DNA from: Pseudomonas cerasi
GTDB taxonomy: Bacteria > Pseudomonadota > Gammaproteobacteria > Pseudomonadales > Pseudomonadaceae
Assembly (NCBI RefSeq): GCF_900074915.1
Contig: NZ_LT222319.1
Coordinates: 1,547,001-1,611,000 of the forward strand
Direction: 5' to 3'
Length of the DNA: 64,000 nt
The notes below the pieces were generated by a model. That model was not told the DNA's origin. It searched no databases and was given only the letters and a program-made list of their open reading frames with translations. Numbering within the stretch: the first letter of the stretch is position 1; the number at the start of each line of letters is the position of its first letter. The position numbers and the translations under genes were made by a program. Of this stretch, positions 1,056 to 9,394 are shown piece by piece.

Positions 1056-1268
1056 TCAGTCGGACGCCCTAAAAACCATTGCGCCTACTGCCGATATGGA
1101 GATGGGATAGTTTTGCGTCAGTACGTGGGTCAGTCCGGCATTAACAATCAGTAGCCATAATATCAGGGAGCTGCAGTCGCGGTTCCAGACGAAGCTCCAG
1201 TAAACTAGATAAAGAGCCGGGTGGCGAGAACTGACCAGTACCTCGCGCTTCAAAACCTGAGCGCTCAT
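1056..1268 (-). CDS. small membrane protein of the ICE block, probably truncated
   Basis: The ATG at 1268 overlaps the stop of the DsbA-like gene as ATGA, the coupling used elsewhere in this block, which is the main reason to believe it. It encodes 70 residues. A short polar N-terminus (MSAQVLKREVLVSSRHP) is followed by hydrophobic stretches around residues 18-28 and 34-50, so one or two membrane segments are likely. The frame stops just before the TGTCAA region, so the C-terminus may have been lost at the ICE breakpoint. I cannot assign a family. Confidence 0.45.
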   Translation of the reverse strand: MSAQVLKREVLVSSRHPALYLVYWSFVWNRDCSSLILWLLIVNAGLTHVLTQNYPISISAVGAMVFRASD

Positions 1269-1969
1269 TTGTCGCCACCGGCAACTGAACCAGCAGCCAG
1301 CCAGTCCATTGCGGAAAGCAGCACGTTACCGTCAGGTGCTCCCTGCAGCTTGATCGATCGTCCAGAGACTTTATCCTTGATGACCAACGTCGGTGTGGCA
1401 GTGATGCCGTCCTGGCTGGCCTTGTGAGCCTGGCTAATGACGGCCCGTTGCACGGACGGGTTGCTCGAAGCGCAGTTATCAATATATTGCTGTCGATCCT
1501 CAAGCCCCGGGATCTGCGGATTGCCAGTAGCTCCAGCACCGTTCGACCGAGTACGCTGATAAATGAGTTCGACTGCGAGCCAGAAAGCGTCATTGCCGCG
1601 CTCAATCCCTGCGCACTCAGCCCACCGAGCTTCATAGCTCGCGGCCGGCTCGTTCATAGGAAGAGGGAGGTGGTGCCACTGGAGGTTTACGTCTGGATGC
1701 TGATCAACCCATGCTTTGAGCTGTGGGAAATAATCCTTGCAGTACGGGCATTCCAGATCTGCATACTCCACGATGGTGAATCTGGCACGGCTGCTCCCGT
1801 AAACCCACGCGCCATTATGCTTCGTCTGTTTGGTTGTCTTTCTGACGCTGTCGGCGGTGTTGGGCATTTGCATGGCCTGTCTGACATCTGGCAGGCATTC
1901 AAAAGCCAGGATTGCCAAGGCGACCGCACCGATGCCGTACAGGATCTGGCGATGTGTGGGTCGCTTCAT
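1265..1969 (-). CDS. DsbA-family thiol:disulfide oxidoreductase of the ICE
   Basis: The protein has 234 residues. An N-terminal signal anchor (about residues 9-24) is followed by a thioredoxin-fold domain with the active site CPYC at 74-77 (context DLECPYCKDY) and a probable cis-proline loop ATPTLVI near the C-terminus. Proteins of this type oxidise or isomerise disulfides in the periplasm, and in ICE transfer operons they are thought to help fold secretion-channel components. It overlaps the 99-aa gene upstream by 4 bp and the 70-aa gene downstream by 4 bp. A DsbA-like gene after the PFL_4706-type ATPase is usual in this ICE family. Confidence 0.8.
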   Translation of the reverse strand: MKRPTHRQILYGIGAVALAILAFECLPDVRQAMQMPNTADSVRKTTKQTKHNGAWVYGSSRARFTIVEYADLECPYCKDYFPQLKAWVDQHPDVNLQWHHLPLPMNEPAASYEARWAECAGIERGNDAFWLAVELIYQRTRSNGAGATGNPQIPGLEDRQQYIDNCASSNPSVQRAVISQAHKASQDGITATPTLVIKDKVSGRSIKLQGAPDGNVLLSAMDWLAAGSVAGGDK

Positions 1970-2265
1970 GCGGAGGCCTCTTTGTCGAGGAGCTGTTTGG
2001 CCAGCAGCTCCTGATCCAGCAGCGTCAGAAGAGCTTTCTGGGCGCTTTCAGGCTGTGGGTGATGCTCAAGCCACTGGTCCAGCGCTTTGTGCAGTTGGGA
2101 CTGGATCTCTCGACGATCAACCGCTACATGTTTCACGACTTCCAGGTGTTCGATCAGGACCGGTGCGCAAATTTTCAAGGCCAGCAGAGCATCTTCCTGT
2201 GGGTTTTTGAGTAGTTGAGTCAGGCTGTCGATCAGATTTTGAGTCAGGGCATCCATGGCTCTCAT
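1966..2265 (-). CDS. conserved small ICE protein of unknown function
   Basis: It encodes 99 residues, beginning MRAMDALTQNLIDSLTQ, rich in Leu, Gln, Glu and Lys with no membrane segment. It is probably all helical and cytoplasmic. It overlaps the ATPase stop by 4 bp (ATGA) and the DsbA-like start by 4 bp, so it is almost certainly translated with them. A second ATG three codons in is an alternative start. I do not recognise a domain; its position between the conjugative ATPase and the oxidoreductase suggests an accessory role in transfer. Confidence 0.7.
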   Translation of the reverse strand: MRAMDALTQNLIDSLTQLLKNPQEDALLALKICAPVLIEHLEVVKHVAVDRREIQSQLHKALDQWLEHHPQPESAQKALLTLLDQELLAKQLLDKEASA

Positions 2266-5219
2266 GCCAGGTTCTCCAAGGGTGAAGCGGGGAATGTAAT
2301 GGTTGTCGGTTCAATCCCGCGAATGCGGTCGAGGTCGTGTGCGATCGCCATTGCGGCTCCCAGCTCGTCTACCCCTAATGACTGCATTAGATCGTACCGC
2401 TGTTTTTTTTCTTCCGGCTCAGTCATGGCCAATGCCAGGAGCAGGCTTGGGGGCACGGCTCGAAACAAAACCTCCATCGATTTGGAAAGCACAACCCCTT
2501 CAGTATACTTTCCGCTCTCTTTGCGGGCTGACAGCATCAGTGACTTTTGCGCAGGCGTCAGCTTACGGAACGTGGTGATTTTCTCCACTTCATCCGGTGG
2601 CATGTTCAGGCAGATCCACCACTCGATCATGTTAAGCATCGGTGCTGCTGCTGACGGAAGGTCGTCGATGTTCTGAGTGGCAAGCCAGAACCAGGCACCG
2701 AGTTTTCGCCACATCTTGGTGATCTTGATGACGTAGGGCGAGAGAAGGGGATTTTTCGTAATGATGTGACCCTCGTCAGTGAAGTTGACGATCGGACGCC
2801 CCTTGAATTGGTCCCGTTCTGCAATGTTGTTCACGGTGTTGATCAGCGAGATGTAGGCGACCGACAGTTGGGCGTTATACCCCTCGCGGGCGTAGGTGGC
2901 CAAGTCCAGGATTGTGATGTCGGCCTCAGGCCAAGGCGTACCCTCCCGGTTGAACATCTCACCGTCAGCCCCCATGCAGAACATGTCCATGGCTTCAGCC
3001 ATCTCAAACATGCGTTCTCGGCGCTTTTCCGGAAGGGTGGTGTCCTTGCCAGCGTCACTCAGCGCATCACGCACATCCTCCGTCTTGACTGCTCGTTCAG
3101 CGTCAAAGCATGTTCTGGCTGCCGTCAGAATGCAGTGCCTAATGGCGCTGCGGTCTGCGCGAGTGAGTCGAGCCTCTTCTCTCTCTTCGCCGCCGGTGAT
3201 CATGAGCCTGGCCACGATCTCCATTTCGCCCAAAACATCACGCTCCTCTTCGCCCTGTTCAGGCATTGTTTGCAGATGCTCATCGGATCCTTCAATGTCA
3301 TCGGCATCCAGGATCGTGACTTTGTCAGGTGTTGAAACCAGGCGAATGGCATCAGTGAAGGGGGCCAGACTCACGCCCGACCCTGGCGCCAACTTGAGCC
3401 GGTTGACCGTCAGCCCAAGCTTTTGGGCAAAATCTCCCAGTAGGCCGAAACTATTACCGGCTTCAATGATGAACAGGCGCGGCCTGTAAATGGCGATTAA
3501 CTGCATCAGCAAATTGTTGGCCGTGGCTGACTTACCTGAACCTGTCGGGCCAAACAGGAGCAGATGGGCATTCATCTGCCGATCAAGCTTGTTGAACGGG
3601 TCGAACGTCAGCGGTGCCCCGCCCCTGTTGAACAGGGTTATGCCGGGGTTGCCCGTGCCGCTGGCACGACCCCATATCGGCGAAAGGTTCGCGACATGCT
3701 GGGCGAGCATCATCTGCGTGTACCAGTCCAAAGCATGTTTCTTGTTCACATCAAAACTGGCGGGCAGCCACCGCAGGTAACTGCTGAGAGGGGCGACTTC
3801 ATCACGAGGATAGACAGGTTCCATACCGGCGCTAAGCATGGCATTGGCAAGCTCCATGCTTCGACTTTCCAGTTGTTGCTCATCCTTGCCGGTCAAGTAA
3901 AAAACCACGTTGCCCCGGTACAGCTTGTGTTTTCGACCGATCAGTTTCCGGGCTTCGTCGACCGCTTCACGGGTCAGGGCGGAGGCTTGATTGTCACCGA
4001 CTGATTTACGTGCCAGTTTTTCCAGGTGGGCCTCCAGAACATCCTGTGGAGTGATCACCAGCGTGATGTTGAGTACTGTGTCCTCGGGCAACTTGTCGAA
4101 CAAGGCATGCAGCGCGTCCCCGCCTTTACGGTTTTCACCCGTCAGGTGCCCGGTCTTTGGCGCATCGCGTAAGCGATCGAGGACGATGACGCGGTGAGGG
4201 CGCGAGTCGAAGTACCAGAGACCCTTCTTGGCATCCGATTGCGGTTCGCTGTAGAACAGGCACTGAGAGAAATCATCGCCGCTGGCCAGCGGCAGCGTGC
4301 CCTCTTCTGGTGGTTCGACCGTGCGGTTATTGACGATTTCGAAGAAACGATCGATGTCCTGGCGCTTTGATCCCAAGTGTTCGGGATGCGGGTTGAACCA
4401 GTGCAACAGCCAGTGACGAATGTCATGGCGATCCATGCGCCGGGTTTTGATGCCCGCGTTGGCCAGTCCTCCCGTCAGGCGCTCGCAAATGTTTTTCAAG
4501 TACATCGACGGCGTCTGGCCACGAACCAGTCCATCGCCGGTGCAACGCCGGTAGACGACCATGCGAACCCTGCGTTGCTGGCCGCGCCAGGGCAGTTGAG
4601 ACACTTTGGTGTCTTCAAATAAACCTCCCGGCTTGGAGATTGCCTCTAGGTGATGTTTGAATTGCTGCAGGTACATTTCTGTAAACGCCGTACCCTGAGC
4701 GCGAGGCTGGACGTAATCATGCAACGTCTCCAGATAATCTTCCCAACTGGTTTCATCCTTGGCGTAGAACTGCACCACCCAAGGCGATTCATCCAGTTCG
4801 TCAAAACTGTCCTGCAGCGCATTTTCGAGAGCATCGCGCGCTTTGCGTAACCACTCAGGATCCCGACCTTCGGTGCCGATGGGGGTGAGTTCATAGAATG
4901 CTGCCAGTGACTTGCCGTCCTCGAGCAGCATCGCTTGCTCCTGAGGGAGGTACTCCGTCCAGGGCAGCATGTCGACGAATGACGGGTTGACGGCATACAG
5001 GGCTGCGATATCGTCGACCGTCGCAGGTTTGCGCTTGGGATCTAGCCACGCGCCAGGCTCTGGTATGCCCTCAGCCGCCAGGCGAGCCAGATAACGCTCT
5101 CTGGCCTGTGCGAAGATGGCCTCATCTCGTAGCTGATCGGCGATCGTCTCGACTGGAGTATCAACCACGGTGTCAGTGCCTCGATCCCGACGCTTTGTCA
5201 AACGCTTCAAAAGTCCCAT
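2262..5219 (-). CDS. conjugative transfer ATPase (VirB4/TraC-like, TIGR03744/PFL_4706 type)
   Basis: The protein has 985 residues from the ATG at 5219 (MGLLKRLTKRRDRG). The open frame runs further upstream, but that part overlaps the lipoprotein gene, and the chosen start couples to its stop as TGATG. Walker A is GPTGSGKS at about 557-564; the Walker B-like segment VNFTDEGH is at about 811-818, followed by WFWLATQN. This is the layout of type IV secretion ATPases of the VirB4/TraC group, which power pilus or channel assembly at the inner membrane. Length and context fit the PFL_4706 family of SPI-7/PPHGI-1-like ICEs. The frame is intact, so the gene itself is not decayed. Confidence 0.9.
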   Translation of the reverse strand: MGLLKRLTKRRDRGTDTVVDTPVETIADQLRDEAIFAQARERYLARLAAEGIPEPGAWLDPKRKPATVDDIAALYAVNPSFVDMLPWTEYLPQEQAMLLEDGKSLAAFYELTPIGTEGRDPEWLRKARDALENALQDSFDELDESPWVVQFYAKDETSWEDYLETLHDYVQPRAQGTAFTEMYLQQFKHHLEAISKPGGLFEDTKVSQLPWRGQQRRVRMVVYRRCTGDGLVRGQTPSMYLKNICERLTGGLANAGIKTRRMDRHDIRHWLLHWFNPHPEHLGSKRQDIDRFFEIVNNRTVEPPEEGTLPLASGDDFSQCLFYSEPQSDAKKGLWYFDSRPHRVIVLDRLRDAPKTGHLTGENRKGGDALHALFDKLPEDTVLNITLVITPQDVLEAHLEKLARKSVGDNQASALTREAVDEARKLIGRKHKLYRGNVVFYLTGKDEQQLESRSMELANAMLSAGMEPVYPRDEVAPLSSYLRWLPASFDVNKKHALDWYTQMMLAQHVANLSPIWGRASGTGNPGITLFNRGGAPLTFDPFNKLDRQMNAHLLLFGPTGSGKSATANNLLMQLIAIYRPRLFIIEAGNSFGLLGDFAQKLGLTVNRLKLAPGSGVSLAPFTDAIRLVSTPDKVTILDADDIEGSDEHLQTMPEQGEEERDVLGEMEIVARLMITGGEEREEARLTRADRSAIRHCILTAARTCFDAERAVKTEDVRDALSDAGKDTTLPEKRRERMFEMAEAMDMFCMGADGEMFNREGTPWPEADITILDLATYAREGYNAQLSVAYISLINTVNNIAERDQFKGRPIVNFTDEGHIITKNPLLSPYVIKITKMWRKLGAWFWLATQNIDDLPSAAAPMLNMIEWWICLNMPPDEVEKITTFRKLTPAQKSLMLSARKESGKYTEGVVLSKSMEVLFRAVPPSLLLALAMTEPEEKKQRYDLMQSLGVDELGAAMAIAHDLDRIRGIEPTTITFPASPLENLA

Positions 5220-5680
5220 CAATAATCCTCCACCCGCTCGCCGGGCATCGCGTATTGCACGCGTTGATACAGCGGAAATACGGTCGTATACCCCGGTACT
5301 GGCGCGGGATCGGAGCCCGCCAGGTGAGGGAATACGTACATGACCAGGTCCGGATTGGGCAGGCGCTTGAACTGGCTGTAGATCTCGTTCTGAGCCGTGC
5401 GCGTGTACGCGGCGCTGTCCTGCAGCGGCTGAGTGGCCCGCACATCGAGCGGGCGGCGCAGCTCTGCGCGAGCATCGAGCAGTTGCCGACCACTGGCGCT
5501 GCCACCCGAGCCCGTGGTGCCCTGGTTCCAGACATCCATCATGGTGCTGTCGCCATGCGGCAGCATTTCCTCCTTGCTGGTCTGGCATCCTGCGAGTGTG
5601 AGCAAGGCGACAATGAGTGACAGGCCGAGCCGTCCGCTACGGGGTGGCCTTGAAAGATCAATCCAGGTTGGCAGTGGCAT
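5219..5680 (-). CDS. conjugative transfer region lipoprotein (TIGR03751 type)
   Basis: The protein has 153 residues from the ATG at 5680, the start that places a signal peptide with lipobox LAGC directly after a hydrophobic stretch (LSLIVALLTLAGC, Cys at about 30). The frame is open further upstream, but those residues look non-native. The mature part is polar and ends PGERVEDY. It overlaps the end of the TraB-like gene by 23 bp and the ATPase start by one base. By position and size it matches the small lipoprotein between TIGR03752 and TIGR03744 in this ICE family, probably an outer-membrane part of the channel. Confidence 0.8.
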   Translation of the reverse strand: MPLPTWIDLSRPPRSGRLGLSLIVALLTLAGCQTSKEEMLPHGDSTMMDVWNQGTTGSGGSASGRQLLDARAELRRPLDVRATQPLQDSAAYTRTAQNEIYSQFKRLPNPDLVMYVFPHLAGSDPAPVPGYTTVFPLYQRVQYAMPGERVEDY

Positions 5681-7154
5681 GGCTCGCTCCTGATGCGTAC
5701 TTGACCTTGCGGCCTTTGAGTTCGTAATCGATTTCCAGCTCCTGATCGATGTGCAGTGAGACTTGCGCACCAGGCAAGACATAAATGGCCGCGAACGCTT
5801 GTCCGTAGAGTTTGTTAACCCAGCTCGAAACATCCGTGACGCCTTGGGTCAGGATCTTTCCCATCGCCTCGTTACCAGACAAACCGGTGCTACCCAGCGT
5901 CCCAGAAGCGTTCGAGATGTAAGAGGAGGTGCTGCCCTCGGTCTTGATCAACGAGGCTGCTCCAGCACCTGCTGCGGTAATCAGGGCTTGTGAACCGATG
6001 TACTGCTGCGCATTGCTGCGTCGCTCGCCGGCGATGCACGGAATGCCGTAGGGATCACTGATCCAGCCCAGACCACCCTGGATGGGTTGTTGGTCGCCAG
6101 AGTTGTTTTGGTTGTTCTGGTTATTATTCTGCTGATTACCGCCCTGGACTGGGGCGGGTAACGTGCGGACAGTCCCATCGTTGAACACGAAGGTCAGGCT
6201 TTTGATCTGCCCCCGCACGCATGAGAGGGTCCAGTCGCCGGACGCTGTACCGCTGGCCACGGCACCGGCCACGTCTGGGAGATCGATGCCATTGGCCGTG
6301 AGGTTGTCCGGACCGATCAACACCTTGAACGGGTAGGGGTCATTAACCGTCCCATCCACGGGAACCCGGCCAATCAATGCTGACATGGCCACTGACCCCA
6401 TCAACGTCGAGTTCTGAGGCAGGGTGTAGGCACGACGTACCTTCTTACGCTCCTGTTGCTGACCACCCATGTCATCGCGGACAGACTGAGCGCCTGTCGT
6501 CAGGGCTTTCTGGCCTCGGTCTACGGACTCGCCGAAGGCCGTAGGAAAACTGTAGCCGCTCGGAGAGACGCTCGTGCCAGCGGCGATCGGTTTACCGTTG
6601 CTGTCCAGGGCCGTCGCGTCCTGCGGATCGATCCAAACGATGTCTGAACCGCTTGAGTCGGACTTGAACTGTTGGCCATCTCCTTGCTGAACGCCCAGGC
6701 CAATCGGTAGATCCGGGTTCGTAGCGCCGTTTTGTCCCATCCGGGTCAGTTCGTCCATCTGTTTCTTGAAACCCTCCACCACGCTTTGCTGTTGCTGCTG
6801 ACTGTCGAGTTTGAACTGCTCCTGGGCATTCTTCAGACGCTGCTCTACCGTCTGATCGATGTTCGCCAATCGTTGTTTGAGCGCCTCGTTGTCCTGCTTG
6901 ACGGCTGAGTTCTGCGCCATCACATCGGTGATCTGCTGCTTGAGCTCGCGCCCTTCAGCCACGACCGTGCGTAGCGTGTCGCTCGGCGTGTCGCCTTCCA
7001 CACCCAGAGCCTTGGCCTGTTCCGCTGTAAGTTTTGGGGCCGGTGCGTTGTCAGCCTGCTGTTCGGGTCCACCTCTCATCATCTTGATGCCGATGAACAC
7101 CGTGAGCAGGAGAAGCGGAACCACCAGGTACTTGAGCAGCGGGTTACTCTTCAT
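5658..7154 (-). CDS. ICE protein TIGR03752 (PFL_4705 family), TraB/VirB10-like
   Basis: The protein has 498 residues from MKSNPLLKYLVV at 7154. One membrane segment (about 7-22) is followed by a Pro/Ala linker, a coiled-coil stretch rich in Gln/Glu/Lys (about 60-140), and a large periplasmic part with a Gln/Asn-rich insert (near 6090-6150 on the DNA). The C-terminal half has the beta-rich look of TraB/VirB10 proteins, which span the periplasm and gate the type IV channel. Its start lies 11 bp inside the end of the upstream fused gene, which is where it would overlap TIGR03749 in an intact ICE. Confidence 0.85.
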   Translation of the reverse strand: MKSNPLLKYLVVPLLLLTVFIGIKMMRGGPEQQADNAPAPKLTAEQAKALGVEGDTPSDTLRTVVAEGRELKQQITDVMAQNSAVKQDNEALKQRLANIDQTVEQRLKNAQEQFKLDSQQQQQSVVEGFKKQMDELTRMGQNGATNPDLPIGLGVQQGDGQQFKSDSSGSDIVWIDPQDATALDSNGKPIAAGTSVSPSGYSFPTAFGESVDRGQKALTTGAQSVRDDMGGQQQERKKVRRAYTLPQNSTLMGSVAMSALIGRVPVDGTVNDPYPFKVLIGPDNLTANGIDLPDVAGAVASGTASGDWTLSCVRGQIKSLTFVFNDGTVRTLPAPVQGGNQQNNNQNNQNNSGDQQPIQGGLGWISDPYGIPCIAGERRSNAQQYIGSQALITAAGAGAASLIKTEGSTSSYISNASGTLGSTGLSGNEAMGKILTQGVTDVSSWVNKLYGQAFAAIYVLPGAQVSLHIDQELEIDYELKGRKVKYASGASHATANLD

Positions 7155-8013
7155 GCTTGGCTCCCCGGGTTGCACGCGGATCTGCTGGGGCGGCGGAGAA
7201 CACGGTTGCTTGTGTCAGCCCGTGTCCCCGTGTGACCAGGTACAAGGTCGTAGTGTCACTGGCATCACCACAAGGTCCGAGATACGGGTGCTGAAATGCT
7301 GCGGTCGCGAACTCACCCATCAGTTCACGAGGGTCCCCGGCCTGATTGCCACTCGATTGTCTGGTCGACTCCAGACGCTTGCTGGCAGTGTCCTTGTAGT
7401 CGTCGATGCGCGATGGCGTCTGGCGCAATGAGCGTCCTGCCCAGTCGGTGCGAAACGGCCCCGGCTCTACGCACGTGACGGAAATCCCCAATGGCTTGAC
7501 CTCCGCGAGCAGCGCGTCGGAAAAACCTTCGACGGCGTGCTTGGAGGCTGCGTAGTAGCCCGATCCCGGAAAGCCGATAAGGCCGGCAACCGAAGTGATA
7601 TTGATGATGTGACCGCTGCGTTGTTCGCGCATGATCGGCAGCACGGCGCGGGTGACGGCGAACAGACCAAACACGTTGGCATCGAACTGGGCACGGATTT
7701 CAGCGTCTTCGCCTTCTTCGATCGAGCTCTGATAACCGTAACCCGCATTGTTGACCAGTACGTCGATTCTGCCGAACTGCTCCTTTGCGGCAGCCACGGC
7801 GGCTTCTATCTGGTCTGCCTTGCCGACGTCGAGGTCGACCACCAGTACCTGGCCTTTTGCACCCTCGGTCAGGTCTGCGACTCGCGACTTGTCCCTGGCC
7901 GTTGCCACGAGGCGCCAGCCGCGCGCGATGACAAGTTTGGCCAGTTCGCGGCCGAAGCCGGTGGAACAGCCGGTGATGAACCACACCGGGGTATTGGTCG
8001 ATTCGCCTGCCAT
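7144..8013 (-). CDS. chimeric ORF: truncated SDR oxidoreductase fused to the C-terminus of ICE protein TIGR03749
   Basis: The ATG at 8013 follows AAGGAGAAAATGAC and opens 289 codons. Residues 1 to about 228 are a classical short-chain dehydrogenase: NAD(P) site TGCSTGFG (14-21), NNAG (88-91), catalytic Ser141 in NITSVAG and YYAASK (153-158). After GDP at 226-228 the sequence changes to LMGEFATAAFQHPYLGP...DTTTLYLVTRGHGL, which is the C-terminus of TIGR03749 (PFL_4704) proteins; that gene normally precedes TIGR03752. The junction is therefore near 7325-7335. The SDR has lost about the last 50 residues and the ICE protein all but about 60. The catalytic residues remain, but folding is doubtful. 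Confidence 0.8.
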   Translation of the reverse strand: MAGESTNTPVWFITGCSTGFGRELAKLVIARGWRLVATARDKSRVADLTEGAKGQVLVVDLDVGKADQIEAAVAAAKEQFGRIDVLVNNAGYGYQSSIEEGEDAEIRAQFDANVFGLFAVTRAVLPIMREQRSGHIINITSVAGLIGFPGSGYYAASKHAVEGFSDALLAEVKPLGISVTCVEPGPFRTDWAGRSLRQTPSRIDDYKDTASKRLESTRQSSGNQAGDPRELMGEFATAAFQHPYLGPCGDASDTTTLYLVTRGHGLTQATVFSAAPADPRATRGAKHEE

Positions 8014-8252
8014 GTCATTTTCTCCTTCACAAGGGGTCTGATGGTTGTGACAGGGCATAGCGTGGGTCGTTTCATTGAGTCGCCAGTCGGAATCACGCCT
8101 CGGCAAGCGGGTCTTCATGAACGCTTCTCATCGCTGCCTGATGAGCCAGAAACAGCTGTTAAATCAGTTTTTTGGCGCTAGAATCGGCGCGCCTCAAGAA
8201 GTCTGGCCGATATCCACCGGATATCAGCCATAAGCCTTTGTACAGATGGCGC

Positions 8253-8273
8253 AGCCTCTGTCAGGCTTTTTTT
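8253..8273 (+). terminator. short hairpin with T-run upstream of nadA
   Basis: AGCCT (8253-8257) pairs with AGGCT (8263-8267) across a 5-base loop and is followed by TTTTTT. The stem is only 5 bp. It lies 60 bp before the nadA start and could end upstream plus-strand transcription or act as a leader attenuator. Confidence 0.4.
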
Positions 8274-8335
8274 ATTGCCTGTATTTCGGGTGTAAACTTG
8301 CCTTTCGCGCACTGGCGCTTTCAGGTCCCGTGAAC

Positions 8336-9394
8336 ATGACACAGATCTCCGAACGTTTCCTGGTGCAGGCGCATCTTGATGCCAAACAGCCCAGGACGTT
8401 GAGCCCGGCAGAGCAGGCGCGTTACCGTGCCGACATTGCTGAGGAACTCAAGAAGCAGGACGCCGTGCTGGTCGCTCACTATTACTGTGATCCGGTTATC
8501 CAGGCGCTGGCCGAGGAAACCGGTGGCTGCGTGGCCGACTCTCTGGAAATGGCGCGCTTCAGCAATAACCACGCGGCCAGTACTGTGCTGGTGGCGGGTG
8601 TACGTTTCATGGGCGAAACCGCGAAGATCCTCAACCCGGAAAAACGCGTGTTCATGCCGACGCTTGAGGCCACCTGCTCGCTCGATGTGGGGTGCCCGGT
8701 CGATGAGTTTTCCGCTTTTTGCGACCAGCATCCGGAGCGTACGGTGGTGGTGTATGCCAACACCTCGGCAGCGGTCAAAGCCCGTGCGGACTGGGTAGTG
8801 ACCTCAGGCTGTGCGCTGGAGATCGTCGAGAGTCTGATGGACAACGGTGAGAAAATCATCTGGGCGCCAGACAAGCACCTGGGCCGCTACATTCAGCGTG
8901 AAACCGGTGCCGACATGCTGTTGTGGGACGGTGCCTGCATCGTCCACGAAGAGTTCAAATCCAAGCAGCTCGAAGACATGAAAGCCTTGTACCCCGAAGC
9001 TGCGATTCTGGTTCACCCGGAGTCGCCGGAAGCGGTCATCGAGCTGGCTGACGTGGTCGGCTCCACCAGCCAGATGATTGCTGCAGCGCAACGCTTGCCC
9101 AACAAGACGTTCATCGTCGCCACTGACCGCGGCATCTTCTACAAGATGCAGCAGCTGTGTCCGGACAAGATCTTTATCGAGGCGCCTACGGCCGGTAACG
9201 GCGCGGCGTGCCGGAGTTGCGCACATTGCCCGTGGATGGCGATGAATACGCTTGAGCGCACCTTGCAGTGCCTGCGTGAGGGCGGTAACGAGATATTCGT
9301 CGACCCGGCGCTGATCCCCAATGCCGTGCGCCCATTGCAACGCATGCTGGACTTCACTCAGGCAGCGCGCTTGCGACAGGCAGGCAACGCCTGA
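8336..9394 (+). CDS. nadA: quinolinate synthase
   Basis: The protein has 352 residues from the ATG at 8336 ([11 protein letters not shown]), the family's usual length in Pseudomonas. The longer frame back to 8246 lacks conserved sequence. NadA condenses iminoaspartate with dihydroxyacetone phosphate to quinolinate in NAD synthesis, using a [4Fe-4S] cluster. Visible signatures are [41 protein letters not shown] and the C-terminal [13 protein letters not shown], which supplies one cluster ligand. It stands alone, facing bepA across a shared terminator. In several pseudomonads tRNA-Lys genes, known ICE attachment sites, lie upstream of nadA; none is visible here, since ICE sequence begins about 1 kb upstream. 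Confidence 0.96.

Follow-up and report, generated by a model that had tools for sequence, protein, structure and literature searches.

The ICEs of Pseudomonas syringae (PsICEs) have been reported to occupy two tRNA-Lys genes at their 3' ends, att-1 lying close to clpB and att-2 close to queC, with direct repeats of 52 bp (PMC10945833), and the same 52-bp att has also been described in a separate report (PMC3723570). In strain DC3000 of P. syringae, a degraded ICE has been described from the clpB-hopR region (PMC8895235). The locus analyzed here lies in a stretch of 64,000 nucleotides of the Pseudomonas cerasi chromosome (contig NZ_LT222319.1, positions 1,547,001 to 1,611,000; hereafter the window), and it resembles the att-2 members of the PsICE family (PPHGI-1-like, P. 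syringae complex) in that the P. cerasi remnant adjoins queC and tRNA-Lys, and the repeat of a related ICE in another genome of the genus (G404) is also 52 bp long. Unlike the published PsICEs, the P. cerasi element is without one end, most transfer genes, and any second att copy, and it ends inside a chromosomal gene. It also differs from the degraded ICE of DC3000, since the P. cerasi copy would have been locked in place by a deletion that took one of its ends and reached into a chromosomal gene, giving an open chimeric frame, and its integrase frame (479 aa) is still open. The scar looks like ordinary mobile-element decay and like a new instance of ICE decay, and it provides a base-resolved case of ICE fixation in which a deletion takes one end of the element, most of its transfer genes, and neighbouring host genes.

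An ICE remnant at the queC-side tRNA-Lys gene

To the left of the window, the gene order was queC (its end identified by PF06508), tRNA-Lys (C1:1527540-1527615), tRNA-Pro, a tyrosine recombinase, and a MobH/TIGR03760 relaxase, with queC, tRNA-Lys, and the integrase all in one locus (L005), which places the integration at the 3' end of the tRNA-Lys gene beside queC. The relaxase scored above the cut-offs of both TIGR03760 (3.4e-86) and MobH (1.3e-102), and the recombinase was of the XerA/C/D type, below the cut-offs of those families; the remnant accordingly carries a PFGI-1-class relaxase together with a tyrosine recombinase. The relaxase was followed by an effector gene, IS genes, YD-repeat genes, a thioredoxin-like gene, TraC, TIGR03751, TIGR03752, and the tail of TIGR03749, and then by the SDR gene and nadA, with 26.7 kb between the tRNA-Lys end and the join. 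IS21 and IS5 genes and YD-repeat proteins were found within the remnant, a DUF3742 frame was present in its left-hand stretch, and the ICE DNA after tRNA-Lys was 95.5% like that of G404 over 4.3 kb. As such, the block represents a PPHGI-1/PFGI-1-class ICE, of which it retains the tRNA end, in the att-2 position described on the queC side. The earlier note had stated that there is neither an attachment repeat nor a tRNA, which holds at the junction with the SDR gene only, since at its opposite end the ICE block abuts the tRNA-Lys gene, outside the window.

The right-hand part of the remnant lies in the window, all on the minus strand, and comprises the thioredoxin-like gene (1265..1969), also present in the G404 ICE, a TIGR03744 TraC/VirB4-type ATPase (2262..5588; Pfam and NCBIfam), a TIGR03751 conjugal transfer lipoprotein (5219..5833; NCBIfam), and a TIGR03752 ICE protein (5658..7175). 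The frame of the last gene overlaps the end of the fusion gene described below, as it does that of TIGR03749 in G404. On the other side, the SDR part is adjoined by nadA (8246..9394, plus strand; PF02445), a chromosomal neighbour outside the ICE that has the same position in G115, another genome of the genus.

Like the PFGI-1-class relaxase/transfer module (TIGR03760, TIGR03744/03749/03751/03752), the P. cerasi copy consists of these families and, as far as the break, keeps the gene order of G404, but it is cut inside TIGR03749, and TIGR03746, TIGR03747, and TraD are missing from the remnant. The best TraD (TIGR03754) score in P. cerasi was 20 bits, below the cut-off, whereas G404 and G115 had matches above it. 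Because TraD and other transfer genes are missing and TIGR03749 is represented by its tail only, the block is a remnant rather than a working ICE and, judging from its gene content, is probably incapable of self-transfer. Moreover, no attL/attR pair flanks it, the exact att cores in P. cerasi being confined to the two tRNA-Lys genes; the missing second att copy is, alone, weak evidence, because one of the ICE copies in G404 also has no exact partner.

The cargo of the remnant includes a frame for a type III effector of the HopW1-1/HopPmaA family (PF15457, 1.6e-171; L005:5098-7539, G000:C1:1532098-1534539), and the deletion may have fixed this effector in the chromosome. Between the relaxase and TraC, a series of YD-repeat (RHS-like) frames interspersed with transposase-like frames was also detected (L005:13013-19678).

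A chimeric SDR::TIGR03749 frame

The fusion gene is a single open frame on the minus strand (7144..8013, read from 8013 to 7144; 289 aa), starting at the SDR start at 8013, and reading from the first ATG at 8118 extends it to 324 aa (8118-7144). Its product is a classical SDR through G-D-P (residues 226-228) and thereafter consists of the 63 last residues of TIGR03749/DUF3438, just as the earlier note had read it from the letters, and the reading is borne out by Pfam, NCBIfam, and DNA matches. In the 324-aa reading, adh_short matched residues 46-229 (1.2e-53) and DUF3438 matched residues 254-308 (3.5e-14; profile 191-245 of 252). The SDR part (residues 1-226; 7336..8013, minus strand) is of the PRK06180 type and contains TGCSTGFG and YAASK, which correspond to the SDR motifs TGxxxGxG and YxxxK. 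It does not, however, form a whole SDR domain with its C-terminal part, as the PRK06180 profile was covered from 3 to 226 of 279 in the fusion versus 3 to 278 in the SDR of G115, and, relative to the normal protein (284 aa in G115), about 58 C-terminal residues have been lost.

The remainder (7144..7335, minus strand) is the 3' end of the ICE gene, comprising its last 63 codons and the stop. With one exception, the encoded residues are those at positions 272-334 of the G404 TIGR03749 frame (334 aa), and the tail DNA was 98-99% identical to the ICE gene. The TIGR03749 match (window 7207-7338; profile 215-258 of 259, E 1.2e-14) was the sole one in the P. cerasi genome, and it fell under the family cut-off, as would be expected of a tail. 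The fusion is followed by TIGR03752 (611 bits), as the note had also read, and after it come TIGR03751 and TIGR03744/TraC.

One way to deny a fusion, which the note itself had named, is that the last approximately 60 residues are the normal C-terminus of an SDR subfamily. A few distant SDR rows (35-47% identity) in a protein search of 57 genomes did run into the tail, to query residues 292-306, but they are read as probably overextended alignments of other SDRs because the tail DNA is nearly identical to the ICE gene. In close relatives, the protein goes on with a C-terminus of unrelated sequence, and the fit to the SDR profile extends to the profile end. With the DUF3438/TIGR03749 match, the ICE DNA identity, and the comparison with the G404 protein all against it, the probability of this reading is close to nil, and it was ruled out.

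The junction at base resolution

A query of 1,021 bases around the join was compared with 398 genomes of the genus, the P. cerasi genome included. The strongest DNA matches on the SDR side (G115, G417, G023, G356, G106, and G167) start at window 7330-7331 (query 231-232), apart from G167, which starts at 7376 (query 277). The strongest matches on the ICE side (G232, G404 twice, G077, G355, and G115 elsewhere in its genome) stop at 7335 (query 236), and weaker rows stop at 7326-7336 (query 227-237). Among the matches listed, only the P. cerasi row itself spans both sides (1 of 398). The breakpoint, which had been placed at about 7325-7335, is narrowed by the matches on each side to 7331-7335.

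Base by base, P. cerasi reads as ICE to 7335 and as SDR from 7334 (with G115 as the SDR parent) or from 7331 (with P. congelans). The junction (7331..7335) consists of bases common to both parents, the plus strand being GGGTC in the ICE and in P. congelans (5 shared bases), while G115 shares the last two, TC, which adjoin the join. The six SDR relatives readable at the join, a set that leaves out L042 (not aligned there), are divided between GGGTC (L038, L039, and L099) and GGATC (L037, L040, and L041). Random pairs of breakpoints (n = 100,000) shared at least 5 bases in 0.6% and at least 2 bases in 17%. The shared bases are suggestive only.

Relatives with an intact chromosome and an intact ICE

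The chromosome without the ICE is represented by G115, in which queC and tRNA-Lys are followed by a 7.1-kb interval whose genes include a chemoreceptor, a CRP-type regulator, and a DedA/UptA-type protein, and then by a complete SDR gene and nadA; the ICE is absent there (empty site). P. cerasi was 96% identical to G115 over 618 bases up to the tRNA-Lys end and again 95% identical over 3.0 kb from window 7331. The nearest named SDR was that of P. congelans (96%), and this match, together with the published ICE sites, suggests a host of the P. syringae group. P. congelans DSM 14939 (L099), the only one examined of 80 named loci, is collinear with P. cerasi from the join onwards over 10.2 kb (95.5%) and has its tRNA-Lys gene about 9.6 kb from a complete SDR gene, with the intervening DNA matching G115 only partly. 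G115 and P. congelans were the only two relatives identified with a complete SDR gene at this place, and among the 398 genomes G115 alone matched the full 3.75 kb of its own sequence that adjoins and enters the SDR gene. The length of the lost chromosome is therefore an estimate, as G115 and P. congelans differ between tRNA-Lys and the SDR gene. A 445-aa frame beside the complete SDR gene of G115 (L067:15451-16788) matched neither NCBIfam nor Pfam families within the thresholds applied, and DNA similar to it at 72% occurs in G026, G203, and G368.

The ICE is represented by two copies in G404, which were 96.5 and 96.9% identical to P. cerasi in the 6.0 kb leading up to the join; each of them runs on into a whole TIGR03749 gene. 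The copy at C1:621221 has a second att about 97 kb on, at 718046, in the form of a 52-bp exact repeat, and from this att core onward the DNA was identical to the empty site of G115 for 72 bases. Beyond the point corresponding to the join, this copy continues for about 79 kb, a length that applies to this G404 copy, with TIGR03746, TIGR03747, TraD (TIGR03754), PFL_4695, TIGR03759, and topoisomerase III. The other copy (C1:5586023) had no second exact att core in the assembly, and it may also have lost or changed one end.

With G115 as the undeleted chromosome, G404 as the undeleted ICE, and P. cerasi as their join, a deletion is supported, as is the suggestion of the earlier note that illegitimate recombination removed the rest of the ICE. 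A PPHGI-1/PFGI-1-class ICE would first have integrated in the queC-side tRNA-Lys gene (att-2). A later deletion would then have started inside the ICE gene TIGR03749, removed the remaining ICE, taken several kilobases of the adjacent chromosome (about 7 kb for a G115-like ancestor), and ended in the 3' part of the SDR gene, presumably by illegitimate recombination at a common sequence of 2-5 bp. Such an event would leave a 26.7-kb remnant in which the tRNA end, integrase, and relaxase are retained, plus a chimeric SDR::TIGR03749 open frame. On the sequences compared, this one-sided deletion, with the chimera as its by-product, is very probably what happened. The endpoints and losses are shown by comparison with the relatives, and from these we infer a single event of an illegitimate nature. 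A deletion across the far ICE end into the SDR gene is the simplest account; several successive deletions, or an IS-assisted loss followed by loss of the IS, would leave the same scar.

The missing pieces in the P. cerasi genome

The P. cerasi assembly is 99.94% complete, and the junction lies inside a 5.89-Mb contig. When the whole 7.1-kb G115 stretch was searched for in P. cerasi, 29 matches were obtained (40 of 58 candidates scored), all of them at query 1865-2721 with 65-81% identity and inside the chemoreceptor gene. The 4.3 kb of G115 that adjoin the SDR gene and take in its 3' end, up to the join and with the chemoreceptor left out, were not found in P. cerasi (37 of 37 candidates scored). 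An overlapping control query (3.6 kb in common plus 166 more SDR bases) found the scar at 93%, indicating that the search works at this locus. For the front of TIGR03749 and the next stretch with TIGR03746, DNA searches of P. cerasi returned the scar only. For the TIGR03747/TraD stretch, with 40 of 43 candidates scored, they yielded only 880 near-end and 48 far-end bases, which belong to a second ICE remnant. The genome search that the note had recommended, for the SDR C-terminus and the front of TIGR03749, has thus located neither elsewhere, which favours a deletion over a misassembly. Translocation of the missing parts to another place in the genome was rejected, as these searches did not find the pieces.

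The second remnant is of the same class and follows the other tRNA-Lys gene, outside the window (G000:C1:698211 to about 727000; L179:3211 to about L180 12000). It was 95-98% identical to the first over stretches of 4.0 and 5.2 kb, is without several G404 stretches and without TIGR03749, and breaks off inside TIGR03752 to resume beyond TIGR03749. The IS21 in the queC-side remnant (L005:8320-10892) and an IS21 next to the second-remnant DNA (L180:11919-14491) were 99.96% identical over 2,573 bases, a similarity that suggests recent transposition.

Near-identical copies of this kind can mislead assemblers, and the join could on that ground be an assembly misjoin of the ICE with the chromosome, as the earlier note had also considered. 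We regard this as most unlikely, since the join is not at a long repeat but at 2-5 shared bases inside the 5.89-Mb contig, the second ICE copy is without this part, and the displaced pieces, which would remain elsewhere after a misjoin, were not found in the nearly complete assembly.

Coding potential of the chimera

Under the deletion reading, the chimera is most likely a by-product. As the SDR is without about its last 58 residues and TIGR03749 without its first 271, neither part would be expected to work, and annotators should expect that the fusion protein probably functions neither as an SDR nor as TIGR03749. More generally, unusual chimeras found where an ICE meets the chromosome can be scars of decay.

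The fusion might instead be a selected working gene, either as a chimeric SDR or through promoter capture, with conjugation genes driven by the SDR promoter. The frame is kept across the join (the other two frames meet stops within a few codons), the SDR motifs are preserved, and the overlap of the TIGR03752 frame with the fusion end is intact, so that translational coupling could persist and read-through from the fusion into TIGR03752 is possible. An in-frame join is, however, expected by chance in 1 of 3 cases, the SDR end has been lost, the fusion occurs in one genome only, and the remaining ICE probably cannot transfer itself. Moreover, a simple scan of 6900-8400 found no sigma-70-like site (shuffles, mean 0.4). 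We therefore consider a selected working gene very improbable. It is possible that the SDR promoter drives conjugation genes, but transfer would hardly be restored because TraD and other transfer genes are missing. A further speculation, that a chromosomal promoter acts via the translated chimera on TIGR03752, TIGR03751, and TraC, such that part of a dead ICE would have been domesticated under host control, appears very unlikely.

The dN/dS of the SDR part was 0.12 between P. cerasi and G115 and 0.09 both between P. cerasi and P. congelans and between G115 and P. congelans, with five residues changed in P. cerasi only, and that of nadA between P. cerasi and G115 was 0.02. The SDR part therefore shows no clear relaxation, which would fit a working gene but may simply reflect a recent deletion.
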